A stretch of 29,242 nt of DNA from a virus. The position numbers and the translations under genes were made by a program. The stretch lies in IMG/VR virus record IMGVR_UViG_3300021960_000357, positions 1 through 29,242 of that record, one strand, 5' to 3'. This document shows positions 4,277 through 24,462 of the stretch, piece by piece (the first letter of the stretch is position 1; each line of letters opens with the position of its first letter). The notes below the pieces were generated by a model. That model was given only the letters and a program-made list of their open reading frames with translations. It was not told the DNA's origin and made no database searches.

Positions 4277-4285
4277 AACGTTAAA

Positions 4286-4309
4286 AGGGGGGGATATTTC
4301 TCCCCCCCT
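4286..4309 (+). terminator. GC-rich terminator-like hairpin after capsid gene
   Basis: Seven G (4287-4293) pair with seven C (4302-4308) across an 8-base AT loop, with an A-T closing pair. It is the strongest GC stem in this AT-rich window and sits in the only sizeable gap in the head operon. The downstream tract (TAATTATTT) is only partly T-rich, so partial termination or mRNA stabilisation is as likely as full termination. Confidence 0.65.
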
Positions 4310-18014: not shown

Positions 18015-18301
18015 AAAAGATAAAGGTGACACTTCACCAACCTTTAAACATCTTCACCTTAGTTAAATCTCTTTTAACAATTACAATCCTAGAAGAAGTT
18101 GTTGCACAATATGAACTCATTGATCTTTACCCTTCATTGGAAAGAACGCACACACTTGAAAAGCTAATCAAAGCTAATAAAGATAATGTTTACGCTAGTG
18201 ATGTTAGATTGGATTGTTTCTATGAATGTACTGAATTAGAAGATCGAGAACTCTTGGCGAGAGATTTCTCAACCAAGAGCCACGACTTAACGATTAATTA
18301 A
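18011..18301 (+). CDS. Last gene of the rightward unit, hypothetical
   Basis: A 96-residue protein overlapping the holin-like gene by four bases. It begins with strand-helix segments (KVTLHQPLNIFTLVKSLLTI) and ends with an acidic, Cys-containing part (DCFYECTELEDRELLARDF). No family recognised. It overlaps a - strand ORF by four bases tail to tail, marking the point where the two transcription units converge. Confidence 0.5.
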   Translation: MKKIKVTLHQPLNIFTLVKSLLTITILEEVVAQYELIDLYPSLERTHTLEKLIKANKDNVYASDVRLDCFYECTELEDRELLARDFSTKSHDLTIN

Positions 18302-18405
18302 AGATCACCAAATTCATCTTTAAACATTTTGATATAAGCTATTAAGCCCATATAACCTACCACCCCTAAGAGTGGTAGAATTACAAAGTATAATAAGTTT
18401 TCCAT
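18298..18405 (-). CDS. Single-span membrane mini-protein
   Basis: A 35-residue ORF on the - strand with a good ribosome binding site (AGAAAGGG, 18412-18419). Most of it is one membrane helix (LLYFVILPLLGVVGYMGLIA) with a short acidic cytoplasmic-type end (KMFKDEFGDL). It is the last gene of the leftward unit and follows the hairpin that ends the upstream gene. A 7-bp inverted repeat (CTACCAC 18357-18363, GTGGTAG 18372-18378) lies inside it and may help stop transcription from the + strand. Confidence 0.55.
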   Translation of the reverse strand: MENLLYFVILPLLGVVGYMGLIAYIKMFKDEFGDL

Positions 18406-18420
18406 TATATAACCCTTTCT

Positions 18421-18440
18421 GGGGTGGCTTACGCCACCCT
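18421..18440. terminator. Duplicated GGTGGC hairpin, copy 1
   Basis: GGGTGGC, loop TTAC, GCCACCC form a perfect 7-bp stem. The - strand gene upstream has its TAA stop inside the loop. The same 17 bases (GGTGGCTTACGCCACCC) recur at 23623-23639. On the + strand it is followed by TCTCTGTTGTT, so it could terminate late transcripts; on the - strand it is followed directly by a ribosome binding site. Confidence 0.6.
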
Positions 18441-18839
18441 CTCTGTTGTTAAGATGTAATTATTTTTTACTGATTCTTTTCTAGTATCATCTTGTCTTTT
18501 TAAAGGACAATCTAAAAAATAAATCTTATTTAATTCATTTTCGATTTCACAAAAGTAAAAAGCTCCATTGTGCAAACAATGTGTGCTACTTACTTTGTTT
18601 AAAAGTTTTTCACCAAAAGATTGATTAAAACTTTTTATATTTTTTGTGTCATAAATATAAAAAATATCGCCTTTGTTAGTTACCATAAAACCATATTCTT
18701 TACTTGCAAAATCATAATTGTCTTTAACAAAGCCCTCGTATTCGTGATGACCTTTAATTTGTTTTTGTAAATTTAGAGCATCGTCTAAATTATCAAATTT
18801 AGTAAATTCAACTATGTTTGTGTTTTTATATTTTTTCAT
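18429..18839 (-). CDS. Leftward gene with dedicated leader and stop-loop hairpin
   Basis: A 136-residue protein without recognised domains. It is mixed alpha/beta, with a Cys-rich second half (THCLHNGAFYFCEIENELNK, then FLDCPLK) and basic ends. No membrane segment. It is preceded by an AACGAAAGGGAC ribosome binding site and an AT-rich leader that resembles the leader of the 23652-23897 gene, so the two may be controlled together. The gap upstream (244 bases) separates it from the HNH gene, suggesting its own promoter. Its stop codon lies in a hairpin loop. Confidence 0.6.
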   Translation of the reverse strand: MKKYKNTNIVEFTKFDNLDDALNLQKQIKGHHEYEGFVKDNYDFASKEYGFMVTNKGDIFYIYDTKNIKSFNQSFGEKLLNKVSSTHCLHNGAFYFCEIENELNKIYFLDCPLKRQDDTRKESVKNNYILTTERVA

Positions 18840-18854
18840 TGTAGTCCCTTTCGT

Positions 18855-18890
18855 TTTGTTAATACCTATTTATATCAACATTTGTTAATA
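18855..18890 (-). promoter_or_regulatory. Candidate promoter with paired TATTAACAAA boxes
   Basis: Reading the - strand, TATTAACAAA at 18890-18881 and again at 18864-18855 flank a TATAAAT (18874-18868) that would serve as the -10 element. The downstream box runs into AACGAAAGGGAC. The same TATTAACAAA, TATAAAT and AACGAAAGGGAC order is found upstream of the 23652-23897 gene. A plausible -35 is weak. Confidence 0.5.
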
Positions 18891-18966
18891 TATCCAAACA
18901 AATAAAACATTATTTTCACTTTTTTTTATTATTCTGAGGTTTTGTTCCTCTAATGTTCTATTTATC

Positions 18967-18999
18967 AAAAATGCCCTAAAATACGCCTAAAAATGCTCA
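18967..18999. repeat. Three 11-bp tandem repeats (iteron-like)
   Basis: AAAAATGCCCT (18967-18977), AAAATACGCCT (18978-18988) and AAAAATGCTCA (18989-18999) are adjacent and spaced by about one helical turn. They lie in a non-coding, palindrome-rich 244-base gap. Such an arrangement fits a protein-binding array such as an origin or operator. Sequence identity between units is partial. Confidence 0.5.
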
Positions 19000-19032
19000 A
19001 GGCTTCTGCAAAGATCAAATTTAACTTAATAT

Positions 19033-19076
19033 GCTCATTTTGAGCCTCTTATAGCGTTTAAATGCTATTTAAAACG
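19033..19076. other. Two adjacent palindromes in the 18840-19083 gap
   Basis: GCTCA/TGAGC (19033-19037, 19041-19045) makes a 5-bp stem with a 3-base loop. CGTTTAAAT (19055-19063) pairs with ATTTAAAACG (19067-19076) with one bulged base. They lie just after the HNH gene stop and could be a terminator for the leftward operon, or structural parts of an origin with the nearby 11-bp repeats. No T run follows on the - strand. Confidence 0.45.
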
Positions 19077-19083
19077 AGTTTTT

Positions 19084-19557
19084 TCATTCATATTCCCCCT
19101 TACGATCAATAACTTCCCAAATGTCTTTTATTGAGGGTTCTAGCAATACTATCAATTCTAGGTTACTTAATCTATCTAATATGATCTGTTTTTTATTCAT
19201 TTGTGATCTAACCATCTTTTTTAAACTGCCTTCTAATTCACTAATATCTTCTTTGGTATGATGTGGCATAGATAATAAGTTCTTAAATTTCTTATTATAT
19301 AATTTAATTAAAAATTCTGCTCTTTCAGAAATAGTAATTATAAATCTATTGCCTAATGAAACATTACATTGTTTACAGGAAGGAATGGTATTAGATTTAT
19401 TAGTTGATGCACTTTTTGGATTAAAATTAGAAATTGATCTTGGGATAATGTGATCTCTATCTGTTGCTGACTCACCACAATAGGCACAAGTATATTTATT
19501 AAATATTTTTGTTATTTTTGTATCTTTATCTAATTCTTCTAAAATTTCTAAATTCAT
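19084..19557 (-). CDS. HNH endonuclease
   Basis: A 157-residue metal-dependent DNA endonuclease. The HNH core is complete: Cys24-x-x-Cys27, then Asp35-His36 in DRDHIIPRS, an Asn in the loop, and Cys61-x-x-Cys64-Asn65 (PSCKQCN). The two CxxC pairs hold a structural zinc and DRDH supplies the catalytic His. The C-terminal half is helical and basic. It starts at the preceding stop (TAATG on the - strand). As part of a recombination operon it may process replication or packaging intermediates, or degrade host DNA; a free-standing homing endonuclease is less likely. Confidence 0.88.
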   Translation of the reverse strand: MNLEILEELDKDTKITKIFNKYTCAYCGESATDRDHIIPRSISNFNPKSASTNKSNTIPSCKQCNVSLGNRFIITISERAEFLIKLYNKKFKNLLSMPHHTKEDISELEGSLKKMVRSQMNKKQIILDRLSNLELIVLLEPSIKDIWEVIDRKGEYE

Positions 19558-19985
19558 TATGGCAAATTACCGATATGTTCAGCACAATCTAATTTAAGAT
19601 AATAGACTTCTTTCTCTATTTTCTCATTATTATCAAATTCTGTTGTAGCTGGACACATCAAAGTCGATATTGGCGGCATTTGATTGAATAGATATAAGTT
19701 AGTCACATTCCAGCCTATGATCTCACCAGACTCAAAGCTGTTTATATACCAAAACTTTTTGCGGTTATCAAACGCCTCTTTCATTAGCCTTTTATACTTA
19801 TCCCTCTCTAAGATGTAATCGTTATATCTATTTAACTCAAAGTCTCGGTGTTTTAGTTCAACGATGGCATATTTGGATTTACAATCAAAATAAGAGTATT
19901 CATCATAGTATTGGTATTCCAGGGGATATAGAGCAAACTTAGTTTTATTTAATACTGATACGACTGCTAATTCTTTTTCAATCAT
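19557..19985 (-). CDS. PD-(D/E)XK-like nuclease, small
   Basis: A 142-residue protein with a compact restriction-enzyme-like core: Asp34 (FDCKSKYAIVELKHR) followed by Glu43-x-Lys45 on a strand, flanked by helices (RYNDYILERDKYKRLMKEAF). A second strand follows (KKFWYINSF). This D-(x)n-ExK spacing fits PD-(D/E)XK nucleases; catalytic activity is inferred. It overlaps the upstream gene by four bases (ATGA) and shares the HNH gene's start region. Probably acts on branched or linear DNA with the other nucleases of the operon. Confidence 0.55.
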   Translation of the reverse strand: MIEKELAVVSVLNKTKFALYPLEYQYYDEYSYFDCKSKYAIVELKHRDFELNRYNDYILERDKYKRLMKEAFDNRKKFWYINSFESGEIIGWNVTNLYLFNQMPPISTLMCPATTEFDNNEKIEKEVYYLKLDCAEHIGNLP

Positions 19986-20317
19986 AATCCGTGCTGAAGC
20001 AAAGTCCTTTGAGTTGAATGATAAGTTCGCAATAATTCAATATGGATTTTATGAGCCTCGTATTCAGCCCACTTACGACCATAATCTATTTCTGCCTCGT
20101 CAATCTTTTCATCAAGTGCCGCTAAATCCTCATCAGCTTTAGCTTTCATCTCAGCGTCTTTTTGAGTAGCTGTTAATCTGTGTTTTAGATATAAACGAGA
20201 TTTTAAACGATCACGCTGTCGCAATAATGAATCAACACCAACTTTAGATTCTCTTGCAACTTTGCTAAGAGTTTCAGTCTGTTGTTTTAGTTCTTGTAAT
20301 TCTTGTAATGTATTCAT
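19982..20317 (-). CDS. Coiled-coil protein of the recombination operon
   Basis: A 111-residue, highly charged helical protein with heptad-type spacing along most of its length (LQELQELKQQTETLSKVA; DEDLAALDEKIDEAEIDYGR). The C-terminus, HIELLRTYHSTQRTLLQHGL, matches short coiled-coil phage proteins that often neighbour exonucleases and ssDNA-binding proteins. No ribosome binding site precedes the ATG. A nine-codon ORF (ATG at 20343) overlaps this start as ATGA. Function is not established; a recombination accessory role is inference. Confidence 0.5.
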   Translation of the reverse strand: MNTLQELQELKQQTETLSKVARESKVGVDSLLRQRDRLKSRLYLKHRLTATQKDAEMKAKADEDLAALDEKIDEAEIDYGRKWAEYEAHKIHIELLRTYHSTQRTLLQHGL

Positions 20318-20323
20318 AGCTGG

Positions 20324-20367
20324 CGAGAGGTAAGTAAACGCATAGGGGTAGTCAAAACTTACCTCTC
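20324..20367. promoter_or_regulatory. 11-bp inverted repeat before a gene with no ribosome binding site
   Basis: GAGAGGTAAGT (20324-20334) and ACTTACCTCTC (20357-20367) are a perfect inverted repeat around 22 bases. On the - strand the upstream arm contains AAGGAGTTTATG-linked mini ORF (MRGKF, five codons), and the gene below it lacks a Shine-Dalgarno. This suggests control of translation by hairpin formation. Confidence 0.6.
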
Positions 20368-20376
20368 ATAAACTCC

Positions 20377-20898
20377 TTATCTGTTTAGTTGGATAAAGAA
20401 ACTTGTAGCTATGTCTTTCTTCAAGCCTGTATCTAATTTAGCAAGATATTCGTGAGTATGTATTGTCTTAAATATCTTAGCATAAAGATCAGCATAGTTA
20501 TTTATCTTAGCTTGAATCGGATCGTCTTTGACATTAGCTCCATAATTAAAGTCAGTATCATCATCAAGATCATCTTTTATTGTTTCAACTGTTGCGTCTG
20601 GAAACGCCTCTTTAATATCGGCAACAACATCATTTAGAACTTTTACTTTCTTATCGTTATCAATATTCACCCAACCTTTATTGACGTAATAACTAAAAGA
20701 TATTTTATTACCTTCTTTAGCCCAGTCTGGCATTTCATCATTATCAATAAATAAGTTACAGGTAAAATTATTATACTGTTCCTTATATGAGTTAGACGAT
20801 TTAATATCTTCGTTATCCTCTAAAGGTTTCAAAGACATTCCAAACTTACCACCTTTAGGTGGAAAGATTTTATTTATTTCGCATTGTATATTAGCCAT
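20377..20898 (-). CDS. Probable ssDNA-binding protein
   Basis: A 173-residue acidic protein. The N-terminal 100 residues are beta-rich (NIQCEINKIFPPKGGKFG, then KISFSYYVNKGWVNIDNDKK), consistent with an OB fold. The middle is very acidic (TIKDDLDDDTDFNYG), and a helical end follows. It lies immediately upstream of an exonuclease gene and overlaps it by eight bases, like many phage ssDNA-binding/exonuclease pairs. No direct signature was seen, so the call rests on fold type and neighbourhood. Confidence 0.5.
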   Translation of the reverse strand: MANIQCEINKIFPPKGGKFGMSLKPLEDNEDIKSSNSYKEQYNNFTCNLFIDNDEMPDWAKEGNKISFSYYVNKGWVNIDNDKKVKVLNDVVADIKEAFPDATVETIKDDLDDDTDFNYGANVKDDPIQAKINNYADLYAKIFKTIHTHEYLAKLDTGLKKDIATSFFIQLNR

Positions 20899-21679
20899 TG
20901 TTTAGTACTCCTTCATATAGCTTTGTTATTTGTTCTTTAAACTTCTTATCTGAAAAATAGAAGCTACTTAAATCTGGATATGGAAATGATAATAACCAAT
21001 CAGCTTTTGACTTACACATATCGTCAACCCTTTCGATTAATTTCATATTATGATAAATGATTTTCCACCCTTCCTCTAAGTAATTTTCTGAAATTTCCAG
21101 ATAATTAGTTTTCTTATTTGATACATACAGTAGAGCAAATTTCCTATTTTGACCAGTTAATTTCCAATAAAGTGACTGTTGCAAAAAATGAGATGGATTC
21201 ATTTGCATAGCACTTTCTAAAGAACTTGGTACTCTTTTGGTTGTTTTAATGTCTATTACCAATGGCATTGGTACATTCTTAAAATAACTAAAATCCATAA
21301 ATCCGTGTATGCCATATTTTAATCCAAACTCTTTACCATCATTGAACACCCTTTCTTGGTATTTCTCTGGTCGTTTAAGTTGTCTAGATTCTAATTCTTC
21401 TGCAATCTGAAAACCACATTGAATAGCAAACTGCAACTCATCATCACTTTGACCGCCCAGCTTTTTCCATTTCTTAGTGGCGTAATCTATTGCTTGATCT
21501 TTAGTTGGATCTTTAGCCATCATATAATAAGCTAGCGGCTCTGAAACGTTTCCCCTGATGGCGGCATCACCATATCCTGATTTAATACCCATAATCTTGT
21601 CGGCAACAAACAACTGAGGTACTTTCACAAATTTATCAGTTGATGACGCTGAATGTTTAAAGTTTTTAAGCAACGACAT
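20891..21679 (-). CDS. PD-(D/E)XK exonuclease, Cas4/RecB-like
   Basis: A 262-residue nuclease of the RecB-nuclease superfamily. Visible motifs: Glu47 in VSEPLAYY, Asp129 in HGFMDF, Asp143-Ile-Lys145 (VIDIKTTK) and Gln167-x-x-x-Tyr171 (FLQQSLYW), the QxxxY feature typical of this group. These proteins degrade DNA from ends, often 5' to 3', making single strands for annealing. Together with the ssDNA-binding-like protein it forms a probable phage recombination pair. It overlaps the membrane peptide gene upstream by 14 bases. Confidence 0.85.
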   Translation of the reverse strand: MSLLKNFKHSASSTDKFVKVPQLFVADKIMGIKSGYGDAAIRGNVSEPLAYYMMAKDPTKDQAIDYATKKWKKLGGQSDDELQFAIQCGFQIAEELESRQLKRPEKYQERVFNDGKEFGLKYGIHGFMDFSYFKNVPMPLVIDIKTTKRVPSSLESAMQMNPSHFLQQSLYWKLTGQNRKFALLYVSNKKTNYLEISENYLEEGWKIIYHNMKLIERVDDMCKSKADWLLSFPYPDLSSFYFSDKKFKEQITKLYEGVLNNG

Positions 21680-21758
21680 AAGCCACCAATAGGACAGTTA
21701 TAATTAAAACAATTACAACAGCTATTACAAACTTTCCAAATGTAGTAAAGTAGTTCAT
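21666..21758 (-). CDS. Single-span membrane peptide
   Basis: A 30-residue peptide consisting of a short polar start and one long membrane helix (KFVIAVVIVLIITVLLVAYV). A strong ribosome binding site (GGGGGAAAAC) precedes the ATG, and it overlaps its neighbours at both ends. No domain. Small membrane peptides in early phage operons often affect host membrane processes or superinfection; nothing here shows which. Confidence 0.6.
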   Translation of the reverse strand: MNYFTTFGKFVIAVVIVLIITVLLVAYVVA

Positions 21759-21916
21759 AAGTTTTCCCCCTTTTTAATTTTAGTTTTAGCTCTCTCTAAA
21801 GCATTTTTATCAAAATTATCTAGTTCTTCTGCTAATACCCATTTTATAAATGCTTTATATTCAGCCCTAGTCATTTTAATATTTAATTCTCTATATCCGT
21901 GATTCTGATTCACCAT
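21755..21916 (-). CDS. Small charged helical protein
   Basis: A 53-residue ORF with AGGAG nine bases before the ATG. It is mostly one or two amphipathic helices (RAEYKAFIKWVLAEELDNFD, then ALERAKTKIKKGE). The stop overlaps the membrane peptide start by four bases (ATGA). No family recognised. It is part of a run of overlapping mini-genes in the early operon. Confidence 0.55.
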   Translation of the reverse strand: MVNQNHGYRELNIKMTRAEYKAFIKWVLAEELDNFDKNALERAKTKIKKGENL

Positions 21917-22040
21917 TATCTTCATCTCCTAATTCACAGAATACATTCTCACAGTCGATACATATATTCTGATAGTTAATTTCATCGTGATCGCACATAG
22001 CTCCACACTCTTTACAAACTAATATTTTTCTACCTAACAT
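21891..22040 (-). CDS. Zinc-ribbon-like mini-protein
   Basis: A 49-residue ORF. Two cysteine pairs, CKEC (9-12) and CIDC (27-30), 15 residues apart, with further Cys16 and Cys35, make a typical small zinc ribbon or treble-clef-like knot (CKECGAMCDH, ICIDCENVFC), followed by an acidic tail. The ATG lies inside the end of the gene upstream on this strand, with a weak AT-rich leader. It may contact RNA, DNA or another protein; a phage regulator or anti-host factor is possible but unproven. Confidence 0.6.
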   Translation of the reverse strand: MLGRKILVCKECGAMCDHDEINYQNICIDCENVFCELGDEDNGESESRI

Positions 22041-22191
22041 TTAATTCTTCCGCTATGTCATCAACAGTAAACATTAGTTTCTCAATTTCATATTCGCACC
22101 AGCTTGATTTCACAAAAGTATATTGAGTGTAAACCATAAACAATAAACATATCGCTATTATAAAATGGATTATTCTATCTGTTGTTTTCAT
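22030..22191 (-). CDS. Single-span membrane protein
   Basis: A 53-residue protein starting at ATG 22191, preceded by GGGGGAAAT. An in-frame ATG at 22215 gives eight more residues but has no ribosome binding site. Residues 6-22 form a membrane helix (RIIHFIIAICLLFMVYTQY), followed by a soluble acidic part with a Trp-Cys pair. Orientation would be N-in. It overlaps both neighbours; function unknown. Confidence 0.55.
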   Translation of the reverse strand: MKTTDRIIHFIIAICLLFMVYTQYTFVKSSWCEYEIEKLMFTVDDIAEELNVR

Positions 22192-22573
22192 ATTTCCCCC
22201 AAGATGGTTTTTCATTAGACATTCCTAATTTGTACATAGATTCTTTAAACCTAAACTTTCTTGTATGTTTGATATGATCTTGATGATGAATCATATCTTT
22301 TATATAATTTTCTACCCACATTATACCATCTTCATCAATTCTTAATTTTAGTATACCTTCATCTGGATAGTTAAGTTGATTCTTTCTTAATTTAGCTTTT
22401 GCAGTTTTGATATCTATTCTTACTAATTTTTTTGTTTCTCTACTTTCAATTATTATGTCAATTTGACCATTGGACTCTACATTTTTATAAACATTATATC
22501 CTTCTCTTAATAATTGAAAAATTGCTTGGTATTCACCAATACTGCCTTTAGTTAATTTTATATTATCACTCAT
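22175..22573 (-). CDS. PD-(D/E)XK-type nuclease, Holliday-resolvase-like
   Basis: A 132-residue protein with a clear core: Glu14 in GSIGEYQAIFQLLREGYNVY, Asp39 in GQIDIIIE, and Asp54-x-Lys56 in VRIDIKTA. This E...D...DxK pattern is characteristic of Hjc-like and related PD-(D/E)XK nucleases that cleave branched DNA. ATG 22573 is preferred over an in-frame ATG at 22618 because GGGAG lies seven bases before it. Along with the exonuclease and HNH enzyme, it gives the operon four nucleases. Confidence 0.75.
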   Translation of the reverse strand: MSDNIKLTKGSIGEYQAIFQLLREGYNVYKNVESNGQIDIIIESRETKKLVRIDIKTAKAKLRKNQLNYPDEGILKLRIDEDGIMWVENYIKDMIHHQDHIKHTRKFRFKESMYKLGMSNEKPSWGKYENNR

Positions 22574-22575
22574 TT

Positions 22576-22881
22576 TTACTCCCACAAAAGGATCTGATGC
22601 CCTCTGCCAACAAGACACCTCTCCATTATTAATTTATAATTATCTGGTGCTTTTGGTGTAAGATTTAATAATCGTATTCTTGAAACATTATAAACCTTCT
22701 TACCAACTTCCCATAGTGCATTGGTATTATCTTCAGCTATTGCTTTGCAAGTATAAATATCATCGTGCTGTCTTGCAGCATCGTGAGGGATATTACCAGA
22801 TCCACCTCTACTATCAACGACAGGCATTGACGCACAAGCTGTTAAGCTAAATAATACCAATATCAGAATTGCCCTTTTCAT
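22576..22881 (-). CDS. Phage lipoprotein
   Basis: A 101-residue protein with a textbook lipoprotein signal: basic start, hydrophobic core (AILILVLFSL) and the lipobox LTAC with Cys16, followed by Ala, which in Gram-negative hosts favours the outer membrane. The mature part has two cysteines and ends with ERCLVGRGHQILLWE, similar to an ending seen in small phage lipoproteins. Placed in the early operon, it may block re-infection or change the envelope. It is followed at two bases by the resolvase-like gene. Confidence 0.8.
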   Translation of the reverse strand: MKRAILILVLFSLTACASMPVVDSRGGSGNIPHDAARQHDDIYTCKAIAEDNTNALWEVGKKVYNVSRIRLLNLTPKAPDNYKLIMERCLVGRGHQILLWE

Positions 22882-23041
22882 TCTTTACCCTTTCATTATA
22901 AAGTTTTTCTACTAAATTAAAAACTATATATTTTTGTTTCATAGATAGTTTTTCTTCAAGTTCAATCAACATCTGATTAATGTTATTGAATTGTTTATCG
23001 TCATAGTTGAAAGCCTTATACTTCCAATTTACTTTCTCCAT
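22847..23041 (-). CDS. Small helical protein overlapping the lipoprotein gene
   Basis: A 64-residue protein dominated by helices (NNINQMLIELEEKLSMKQKY, then IVFNLVEKLYNERVKNEKG). It overlaps the upstream regulator gene by 13 bases and the lipoprotein gene by 35, in other frames. AAGGAGATATA lies upstream of the ATG but about 14 bases away, so the start is uncertain. No family recognised. Confidence 0.5.
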   Translation of the reverse strand: MEKVNWKYKAFNYDDKQFNNINQMLIELEEKLSMKQKYIVFNLVEKLYNERVKNEKGNSDIGII

Positions 23042-23325
23042 ACTATTGTATATCTCCTTTTATTATTTAAATATGATCTGATTCCAGCGTTAGTCATCAT
23101 ACATTCTTGCTTTAGTTTTTTGGCTAACATAAATTTTCTTATTGCTTTCACACTCCAATATTTGTTAGTTTTGCTTTTGGGACTATGAGGCAAAATATCA
23201 AATTCTTTTGACCAATCTCTAATAATGTATTGAGGTAATTCTAAATAATATACAAGATCATTAATGTTATGATATGATTTTTTCTTAATTTCTTCCTCTA
23301 TTTTTTTCAATTTATTTTTTTTCAT
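23029..23325 (-). CDS. MerR-like transcriptional regulator
   Basis: A 98-residue DNA-binding protein. A basic coiled start is followed by a winged helix of the MerR kind: YYLELPQYIIRDWSKEFDIL (helix-turn-helix with the typical I-R-x-W) and KSKTNKYWSVKAIRKFMLAK (the wing and next helix, where MerR proteins read RxY followed by a D/A-I-x-x-L helix). The end MTNAGIRSYLNNKRRY corresponds to the ligand-helix start. The long MerR dimer helix is absent, so this is a short version. It may control the two divergent units; its sites could be the repeats near 18.9 or 23.9-24.1 kb. Confidence 0.65.
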   Translation of the reverse strand: MKKNKLKKIEEEIKKKSYHNINDLVYYLELPQYIIRDWSKEFDILPHSPKSKTNKYWSVKAIRKFMLAKKLKQECMMTNAGIRSYLNNKRRYTIVWRK

Positions 23326-23437
23326 TAAGACCTCGTATAAATTTAGTTAATGCTTCAAAATACCTAAGATGTTTTTTAAAATTCTCTAAGTCTCTATGTT
23401 GATATATTTCTTCCATTGGATCGTAAAATACTTTCAT
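23312..23437 (-). CDS. Mini-protein, early operon
   Basis: A 41-residue ORF with a good ribosome binding site (CGAAAGGG, 23443-23450). It overlaps the stop of the upstream gene and the start of the regulator gene. The sequence is acidic and helical at first (YDPMEEIYQHRDLENFKKHL), then basic at its end (RGLNEKK). No domain recognised. Too short for automatic prediction, but its spacing and overlaps are those of a real gene. Confidence 0.5.
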   Translation of the reverse strand: MKVFYDPMEEIYQHRDLENFKKHLRYFEALTKFIRGLNEKK

Positions 23438-23607
23438 TGTTTCCCTTTCGCTATAAATTCGTCAAATACAATTCTTGCTTCTTTGACTGAATATGGTTTT
23501 AAATTATAAGATTCTCTTTCTCGTCTATTCCAACGAAGCCATCGCTGAAACTCATTTTCTAAAGTTTGATCTTCATTCAGAATAAACTCTAAGTCTTTTG
23601 TAATCAT
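23434..23607 (-). CDS. Mini-protein after the copy-2 hairpin
   Basis: A 57-residue ORF with AGAAAGGG just upstream. It is charged and helical, with two Trp residues in EFQRWLRWNRRERE and an end of VKEARIVFDEFIAKGKQ. The ribosome binding site is immediately after the repeated GGTGGC hairpin, as for the 18298-18405 gene. It overlaps the next ATG by four bases (ATGA). Function unknown. Confidence 0.55.
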   Translation of the reverse strand: MITKDLEFILNEDQTLENEFQRWLRWNRRERESYNLKPYSVKEARIVFDEFIAKGKQ

Positions 23608-23620
23608 TATGCCCTTTCTA

Positions 23621-23640
23621 GAGGTGGCTTACGCCACCCC
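23621..23640. other. Duplicated GGTGGC hairpin, copy 2
   Basis: GGTGGC, loop TTAC, GCCACC form a stem identical to the one at 18423-18438, 5.2 kb away. On the - strand it lies between the 23652-23897 gene and the AGAAAGGG ribosome binding site of the next gene. On the + strand it is followed by TAATATTTTTATT, a better termination tract than on the - strand, yet no + gene leads into it. Confidence 0.6.
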
Positions 23641-23651
23641 TAATATTTTTA

Positions 23652-23897
23652 TTAAATTAATGTATTATAATAATCTTCATAATCTTGTTTTGAATTATAA
23701 ATTTTACCATTTCTTCCAAGATACTTTCCACTATGTTCTGCTAAAGCCCAAACTTTTGCTTCTGCTTTTGCTTTTAATTCATCATTTGAAAATGGGTGAT
23801 ACCAAGCACCTTTTTCTTTAGGAAATTTTTTTCCATCTAATTGAACTTGAAAATTGTGTCCGTACCAACTTTGTTCGTGTTTAAATTTAATTTTCAT
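23652..23897 (-). CDS. First gene of the leftward unit, hypothetical
   Basis: An 81-residue protein, basic and rich in aromatic residues (HEQSWYGHNFQVQLDGKKFP, then GAWYHPFSNDELKAKAEAKV). It has no membrane span and no recognised family. The AACGAAAGGGAC ribosome binding site and the AT-rich leader upstream match those of the 18429-18839 gene; the GGTGGC hairpin follows it. As the promoter-proximal gene of the leftward unit it is likely made early and in quantity. Confidence 0.6.
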   Translation of the reverse strand: MKIKFKHEQSWYGHNFQVQLDGKKFPKEKGAWYHPFSNDELKAKAEAKVWALAEHSGKYLGRNGKIYNSKQDYEDYYNTLI

Positions 23898-23927
23898 AAT
23901 GTCCCTTTCGTTTATTTAATATCTTAA

Positions 23928-23978
23928 ATTTATAGATATTTGTTAATATTGTAAATAATAAAATAAAAAAATATTGAC
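23928..23978 (-). promoter_or_regulatory. Leftward promoter region with TATTAACAAA box
   Basis: Reading the - strand, TTTACA lies upstream of TATTAACAAA (23948-23939), then TATAAAT (23934-23928) as a -10 candidate, followed by a leader ending in AACGAAAGGGAC before the first leftward gene. The box, -10 and ribosome binding site repeat the arrangement found at 18855-18890. The 15-base spacer is shorter than ideal. Confidence 0.55.
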
Positions 23979-24117: not shown

Positions 24118-24462
24118 ATGAAAAAAATCATACGATCAACAAAACACCTAAATTTCATTAGATCATTACCCTGTTACATATCTGAGCAAACACCAAGCCA
24201 AGCTTGTCATATAAGAATACTATCAGATGGTGGTACAGGATTAAAACCTAGTGATTGCTTTGTATTACCCTTTATCTACCAATACCATAAAATGCAGACT
24301 GATCTTGGGGAGCAAACATTTTATAAAAAATTTAATATTAATCCTTTTACTTTGGCAAAAGAACTAGTAATAATATCACCTTGTAGAAAAGTTAATAATT
24401 CAGAGGTGCTACACCTCTTAGAAGAAAGGGCAAAAACATATGGACGGGTTTATTCTTATTAG
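24118..24462 (+). CDS. DUF968-like / HNH-type nuclease
   Basis: A 114-residue protein with the plan of the DUF968 (NinG-like) recombination nucleases: KHLNFIRSLPC near the start, QACHIRILSDGGTGLKPSD at about 28-46, then a His-rich end IYQYHKMQTDLGEQTFYKKF. The metal Cys pair expected near the first PC is reduced to one Cys19, while ACHIR and YHxxQ remain, as in several phage members. The enzyme probably cuts DNA branches. No clear ribosome binding site precedes it; the iteron-like array lies directly upstream. Confidence 0.65.
   Translation: MKKIIRSTKHLNFIRSLPCYISEQTPSQACHIRILSDGGTGLKPSDCFVLPFIYQYHKMQTDLGEQTFYKKFNINPFTLAKELVIISPCRKVNNSEVLHLLEERAKTYGRVYSY

Follow-up and report, generated by a model that had tools for sequence, protein, structure and literature searches.

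The window analyzed here, positions 1-29,242 of IMG/VR virus record IMGVR_UViG_3300021960_000357, comes from a SAR11 (Pelagibacter) phage. Its major capsid protein is 66-80% identical to those of HTVC111P, HTVC202P, HTVC112P, and HTVC026P, which places it in their group. In the leftward early region of the window (~18.3-23.9 kb), two minus strand genes, termed A and B, each lie between a leader and a hairpin that is followed by the Shine-Dalgarno sequence (SD) of a small downstream gene, D1 or D2. As judged from alignments with related contigs, genes at these sites have been swapped, the joints fall at the leader/ATG and at the hairpin-SD, and the hairpin, with a stop codon in its loop, is a recurrent and covarying element. 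We therefore favor a reading in which the two sites are slots at which counter-defense or host-takeover genes are probably exchanged through homology, with the hairpin serving both as a translation-insulating 3' end and as a crossover zone. The features in question are as follows.

18298-18405, minus strand: D1, a 35-residue small membrane protein, the constant 3' neighbor of slot A
18413-18420, minus strand: SD AGAAAGGG of D1
18422-18439, minus strand: hairpin A, GGGUGGC-GUAA-GCCACCC, with the gene A stop codon UAA (18429-18431) in the GUAA loop
18429-18839, minus strand: gene A, 136 residues, occupant of slot A, without a known family
18840-18905, minus strand: slot A leader, promoter-like, with a 20-bp dyad ATATTAACAAATGTTGATAT at 18872-18891 and the ribosome binding site ACGAAAGGG
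23434-23607, minus strand: D2, 57 residues, the constant 3' neighbor of slot B, with homologs in contigs L332, L102, L344, and L339 behind differing occupants
23612-23619, minus strand: SD AGAAAGGG of D2
23618-23643, minus strand: hairpin B, UUAGGGGUGGC-GUAA-GCCACCUCUAG, 3' of the gene B stop codon
23652-23897, minus strand: gene B, 81 residues, occupant of slot B, with an orthologue at slot B in L339 (81%)
23898-23973, minus strand: slot B leader, 91.6% identical to the leader before gene A in L332 and 90% to that before a gene of family U1 in L102

Gene exchange at the two slots

Slot A was sampled with a scan for the leader only, blind to the hairpin, which gave 14 contigs; to these were added the window itself and L332 with its slot A copy. 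The order leader-occupant-D1 is found in 10 contigs with 8 mutually unrelated occupants, framed by leaders that are 69-100% identical and D1 copies that are 46-100% identical. Contigs L349 and L090, for example, have leaders 99% identical and D1 genes 86% identical around unrelated occupants. Of the 8 types, gene A, U1, and the L090 and L105 occupants terminate in the hairpin; the other four lack it, and there the ATG of D1 overlaps the occupant's stop codon or lies no more than 2 nt after it. The hairpin thus travels with the occupant. Where the hairpin is present, as these sequences read, stop-start contact gives way to an SD of D1's own; in the case of gene A, 23 nt separate the stop from the D1 start.

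At slot B, D2 stands behind gene B in the window and in L339, gene A in L332, U1 in L102, and a gene for the anti-restriction protein ArdC in L344, the D2 homologs being 29-88% identical. The clearest joint is in L332, a 17.7-kb contig whose shared parts are ~92% identical to those of the window, in which an orthologue of gene A (93% identical in amino acids) takes the place of gene B. Here, a block corresponding to window positions 18413-18905 (92.5%) is fused to one corresponding to 23336-23639 (93.4%), and the two overlap solely at L332:7332-7358, 27 bp that are exactly the hairpin and SD. The leader of this gene A copy is of the slot B type (91.6% identical to leader B, 73.6% to leader A). 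Together, the fused blocks and the B-type leader indicate that gene A was exchanged between the two contexts, from about the ATG to the hairpin-SD.

Other hairpin-ended genes behave similarly. Further orthologues of gene A lie in different contexts in L328/L026 and L056 (70%), and the L328 and L056 copies are 92% identical with no homology outside the gene unit. Family U1 (L338:18382-18711, minus strand) is an exchangeable slot gene with at least five gene contexts, and each of the 8 members of a second family, U2, has a next gene of a different family. When hairpin-ended genes are compared across contexts, nucleotide homology ends 0-15 nt past the hairpin and mostly 0-11 nt before the ATG, also for genes as close as 92-96%; for the U1 copies of L338 and L336, which are 96% identical, the limits are 7 nt upstream of the ATG and 10 nt beyond the hairpin. 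The exception is the window and L332 pair, in which homology reaches 28 nt before the ATG and the leaders are related.

Hairpin junctions were compared with hairpin-less junctions on the same strand within 4 kb, with the reservation that the gene pairs are not independent. When the paired genes shared 70% identity or more, their next genes were homologous at 3/23 hairpin junctions versus 62/84 controls; for pairs 40-70% identical, the corresponding figures were 0/27 and 47/101.

The exchanged genes are probably involved in counter-defense or host takeover, as the ArdC occupant suggests. The 294-residue L344 protein, which is not an occupant in the window, has both the ArdcN (3e-21) and the zincin-like MPTase-PolyVal (1.6e-34) domains and matches the PHROG anti-restriction family (2.4e-68). 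ArdC genes belong to U2, and both domains are present in 3/3 members checked (L344, L185, and L056). Outside the ArdC family, a DUF932 protein was the only hairpin-ended gene product above the Pfam cut-off, and the counter-defense role is not extended to all cargo on that basis. Gene A has no Pfam or PHROG match, and its AlphaFold model (predicted local distance difference test score, pLDDT, of 53) is not interpretable. U1 has a predicted winged-helix-like fold (pLDDT 76) whose best fold matches, CodY/MarR-type domains at E ~0.03, are suggestive only. PADLOC returned no match for genes A and B, U1, or two further slot A occupants.

The hairpin and the leaders

The hairpin GGTGGCTTACGCCACC is present in exact copies at 18423-18438 and 23623-23638 (plus strand coordinates), whereas none is expected from shuffled sequences, and an SD with a small-gene ATG follows 3' of each copy (18403-18420 and 23605-23619). 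As minus strand mRNA it reads GGUGGC-GUAA-GCCACC, with a GNRA-type tetraloop. Hairpin A folds with a 7-bp stem (z -2.9) and hairpin B with an 11-bp stem (z -4.5), at energies of -15 to -19 kcal/mol, and the SD is unpaired in both folds. The initial annotation of this DNA, made from the sequence alone, had pointed out the matching hairpin and ribosome binding site at both genes and had placed the gene A stop in the loop, and both observations are borne out.

An IMG/VR scan for the 16-mer found at least 118 stretches, many from unrelated marine phages. The usual reading is ...GTG GCG TAA (Val-Ala-stop), then the SD and the next ATG. Among the matches listed, the loop UAA ends an open reading frame (ORF) of 35 codons or more in 79% of 68 distinct low-GC junctions, compared with 77/525 other GCGTAA/GTAAGCC sites at the same loci. 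A DNA palindrome as the main role was considered and rejected on this contrast, as the loop is oriented with the gene and its in-frame UAA is used. When the third base pair was freed (GGNGGCGTAAGCCNCC), it was Watson-Crick in 91/116 sites, with all four types of pair represented. U1-family genes end in either GGUGGC-GUAA-GCCACC or GGAGGC-AUAA-GCCUCC, and the gene B orthologue of L339 has GGGGGGU-GAAA-GCCCCCC in the same place. The third-pair covariation and these variants indicate that the structure is kept while the letters change. No Rfam covariance model matched the hairpin at E <= 1. In INPHARED isolate genomes, the region has no nucleotide match, gene A no relative, and the hairpin-SD no match; the 16-mer is absent from the four HTVC isolates examined, and the hairpin with AGAAAGG was not found in GTDB contigs of host genomes.

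The two leaders share AACGAAAGGGAC exactly (18844-18855 and 23901-23912). A shared leader had also been proposed at the outset; this stands for the leader as a whole, which is a true repeat (73% over 75 nt, E ~2e-6), and not for the TATTAACAAA box taken alone, which is not rarer than chance and occurs twice before gene A (18855 and 18881). Across 11 aligned leaders, most slot A copies show a T-rich TTTGNAG; ATATTAACAAATGTTRATAT comes next, followed by TATAAT/TATGGT/TATAAA and ACGAAAGG. Both arms of the dyad match perfectly in L338 and L339, and in L332 slot A they are preserved although their letters differ; slot B leaders keep the first arm only. This arrangement resembles a promoter whose spacer harbors an operator. 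A promoter scanner called none in window leader A, where TTGGAT-17-TATAAA is possible but under threshold.

Conservation in relatives had been set beforehand as a test of the initial annotation, and leaders and hairpins are indeed kept in homologous contigs. Its description of a re-used control cassette holds in the main: the leader and hairpin-SD do recur, because they flank exchangeable gene slots, and slot A has an operator-like dyad, but the hairpin follows the inserted gene and does not mark one regulon.

Other hairpins and linkers

A strong 9-bp hairpin at 4285-4308 (plus strand) lies after the major capsid gene, just before the SD of the next gene; its position is kept in several relatives and HTVC isolates with a different sequence. 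The hairpin-SD layout of the slots also occurs on the opposite strand: in the divergent operon, a DnaD-like gene has the hairpin AGAGGTG-CTA-CACCTCT (24401-24417, plus strand) 6 nt ahead of its AGAAAGGG and ATG. In a phage group with GC content ~0.40 (L340, L070, L099, and others), a ~38-nt linker GGTGGYGTAAGCCACCCCTCTYACTGGAGAAGATTATG is reused between changing genes, and two copies ~225-320 bp apart flank one gene in L036, L070, L094, and L099. In L114, stop-in-loop hairpins that vary in sequence lie at the ends of several genes, with repeats of the palindrome TTGGATGTAATACATCCAA after them.

Other genes of the early region

Four further genes of this region are as follows.

19084-19557, minus strand: HNH endonuclease, immediately upstream of slot A in the window
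20891-21679, minus strand: putative exonuclease (PHROG 1706, E 3.6e-6, annotated "CRISPR/Cas system associated")
22175-22618: PDDEXK-like protein, match below the cut-off
23029-23325: MerR-like protein (PF13411, MerR_1; 26.8 bits versus a cut-off of 21.6)

The exonuclease could be a candidate enzyme for the recombination step. Where the window has the 1.15-kb HNH-containing stretch next to slot A, L332 has just 383 bp, and this difference makes a homing-type invasion beside the slot possible.

Proposed mechanism and alternatives

In the mechanism that we propose, the two sites in this SAR11 phage's early region are slots whose genes are exchanged. The 3' neighbor, D1 or D2, stays with each slot, as does the 5' leader in most cases; the middle gene is replaced by recombination, and many incoming genes bring a GUAA-tetraloop stop hairpin with an SD 0-6 nt later. 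Exchange would proceed by homologous recombination in short shared stretches, the leader and ribosome binding site on the 5' side and the hairpin and SD on the 3' side, presumably by phage functions. A terminating ribosome would melt the hairpin, which could then refold behind it just before the next SD and insulate both genes, such that any inserted gene ends cleanly and D1 or D2 starts from its own SD with no stop-start coupling, its translation being kept up irrespective of the occupant. This role as an RNA insulator is suggested by analogy with ribosome termination structures (PMC7518266).

Several observations weigh against this proposal. The stop codon of gene B (23652-23654) is outside the hairpin, ~12 nt before it, so that the loop UAA is unused there. 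The L344 slot B leader is of a different type, and ArdC is the only cargo of known function. Shared stretches of 16-27 bp are short for homologous exchange. Hairpin loci entered the sample by an exact match to the 16-mer. Stem covariation stops at the 6-bp core, and the greater stem length of some copies therefore does not count as evidence. When families are counted, the contrast in swapping is weak (4/4 with the hairpin versus 17/37 nearby, p = 0.11). Finally, the contigs are metagenomic and could in principle be chimeras, although several configurations recur in separate assemblies.

The hairpin could instead be purely an RNA 3'-end element (a processing site, an exonuclease block, or a weak terminator) that stabilizes the upstream message, the shuffling being the usual mosaicism of early regions. 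Consistent with this idea, hairpins with GNRA loops stand 0-6 nt before SDs at several junctions (hairpin-to-ATG gaps of ~11-23 nt), the post-capsid hairpin keeps its place while its sequence changes, and weak T-rich tails are present on the plus strand. On the gene strand, however, no U-run follows the hairpin, AGAAAGGG coming next instead, and this feature of an intrinsic terminator is thus absent. Swaps are also far commoner at hairpin junctions than at nearby ones, and the L332 joint lies exactly in the hairpin and SD, making a pure 3'-end role unlikely. A stop-dependent translation switch, in which termination within the loop would open the hairpin and thereby favor translation of the downstream gene, would fit the UAA in the loop, the SD 0-6 nt after the stem, and the short stop-to-start distance at slot A. 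Yet the SD is already unpaired when the hairpin is folded and would not have to be freed by melting, and in gene B and in L099 the stop is upstream of the hairpin; we regard such a switch as improbable.

It is more doubtful still that the hairpin and leader boxes are DNA operators of one phage regulator, with the two genes as its regulon. The leader A dyad is kept in relatives, and a MerR_1 protein is encoded, which the initial annotation had named as an example of a possible regulator, but nothing ties this protein to the boxes. The leader B dyad is not intact, and hairpin presence follows the occupant, not the slot. The hairpin is found in many unrelated phages, oriented with the gene and with its in-frame UAA in use, neither of which an operator would need. 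We give least credence to integron-like cassettes, in which a recombinase would recognize the hairpin and move gene-plus-hairpin units site-specifically. Gene-sized hairpin-ended units do recur in at least four to five contexts, but the joints vary (in the SD, in the hairpin, or right after it), hairpin-less occupants use the same slot, and no candidate integrase was seen among the early proteins scanned, which did not include every ORF.

Phage early regions are mosaics of small genes, most without an assigned function, and these phages bear on the question of how single genes can be exchanged there without breaking operons, with exchange points readable almost to the base: a conserved leader, a precise swap, a 3' hairpin that holds the stop, and the SD of the next gene. 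The hairpin or leader could serve as a sequence handle for new counter-defense genes of SAR11 phages, the ArdC occupant being a case in point, and the slots offer a clean test of insulation between neighbors by a stop-in-loop hairpin. A broader and rather speculative extension is that gene, stop-in-tetraloop hairpin, and SD form a general cassette format of marine phages, its portable 3' end selected for insulation and as a recombination handle (perhaps for a dedicated enzyme), through which unrelated phages would trade counter-defense genes singly, like an integron without an integrase.

Comparison with known systems

Searches of open-licence papers turned up no account of a hairpin with the stop in its tetraloop that marks phage genes open to exchange. 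Integron gene cassettes similarly consist of a promoterless gene and a 3' hairpin that are moved as a unit. In the present case, the hairpin is only 16 nt, no integrase was seen among the early proteins scanned (not every ORF), and a slot can be occupied without a hairpin. Relaxed homologous recombination by phage recombinases allows gene exchange via short or diverged homologies, a "short" region there being 700 bp (PMC3945230). Phage gene exchange via short homologies is common to both, but the 3' joint here is much shorter, at 16-27 bp.

Ribosome termination structures are stable mRNA structures at stop codons between operon genes, thought to insulate against re-initiation (PMC7518266). Here, too, a stable fold is predicted at or close to the stop between operon genes. 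Those structures are a statistical folding signal just downstream of stops, whereas we find one recurrent hairpin with the stop in its tetraloop, tied to exchangeable genes. Against a criterion of <= -6 kcal/mol per window directly after the stop, the present hairpins have -15 to -19 kcal/mol, but the hairpin spans the gene A stop and begins ~12 nt past that of gene B.

The nearest precedent is the promoter early stem-loop (PeSL), an element reportedly described by Arbiol in 2010 and by Comeau in 2014. In T4-type phages, PeSLs are repeated intergenic regulatory stem-loops that mark, and probably mediate, the shuffling of small early genes (PMC4503421, PMC3950731). Shuffling of neighboring genes at the element is shared with the slots described here. 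A PeSL, however, combines promoter and stem-loop in one intergenic element and its stem-loop is a terminator, whereas here the cargo separates the promoter-like leader on its 5' side from the hairpin on its 3' side, and no terminator U-run is present on the gene strand. A stop codon inside the loop and the SAR11 phages involved, of HTVC111P/HTVC202P type, set the two further apart. Because the shuffling is shared and the composite and terminator features are not, we do not count this element as a PeSL but as another variety of gene-shuffling linker.

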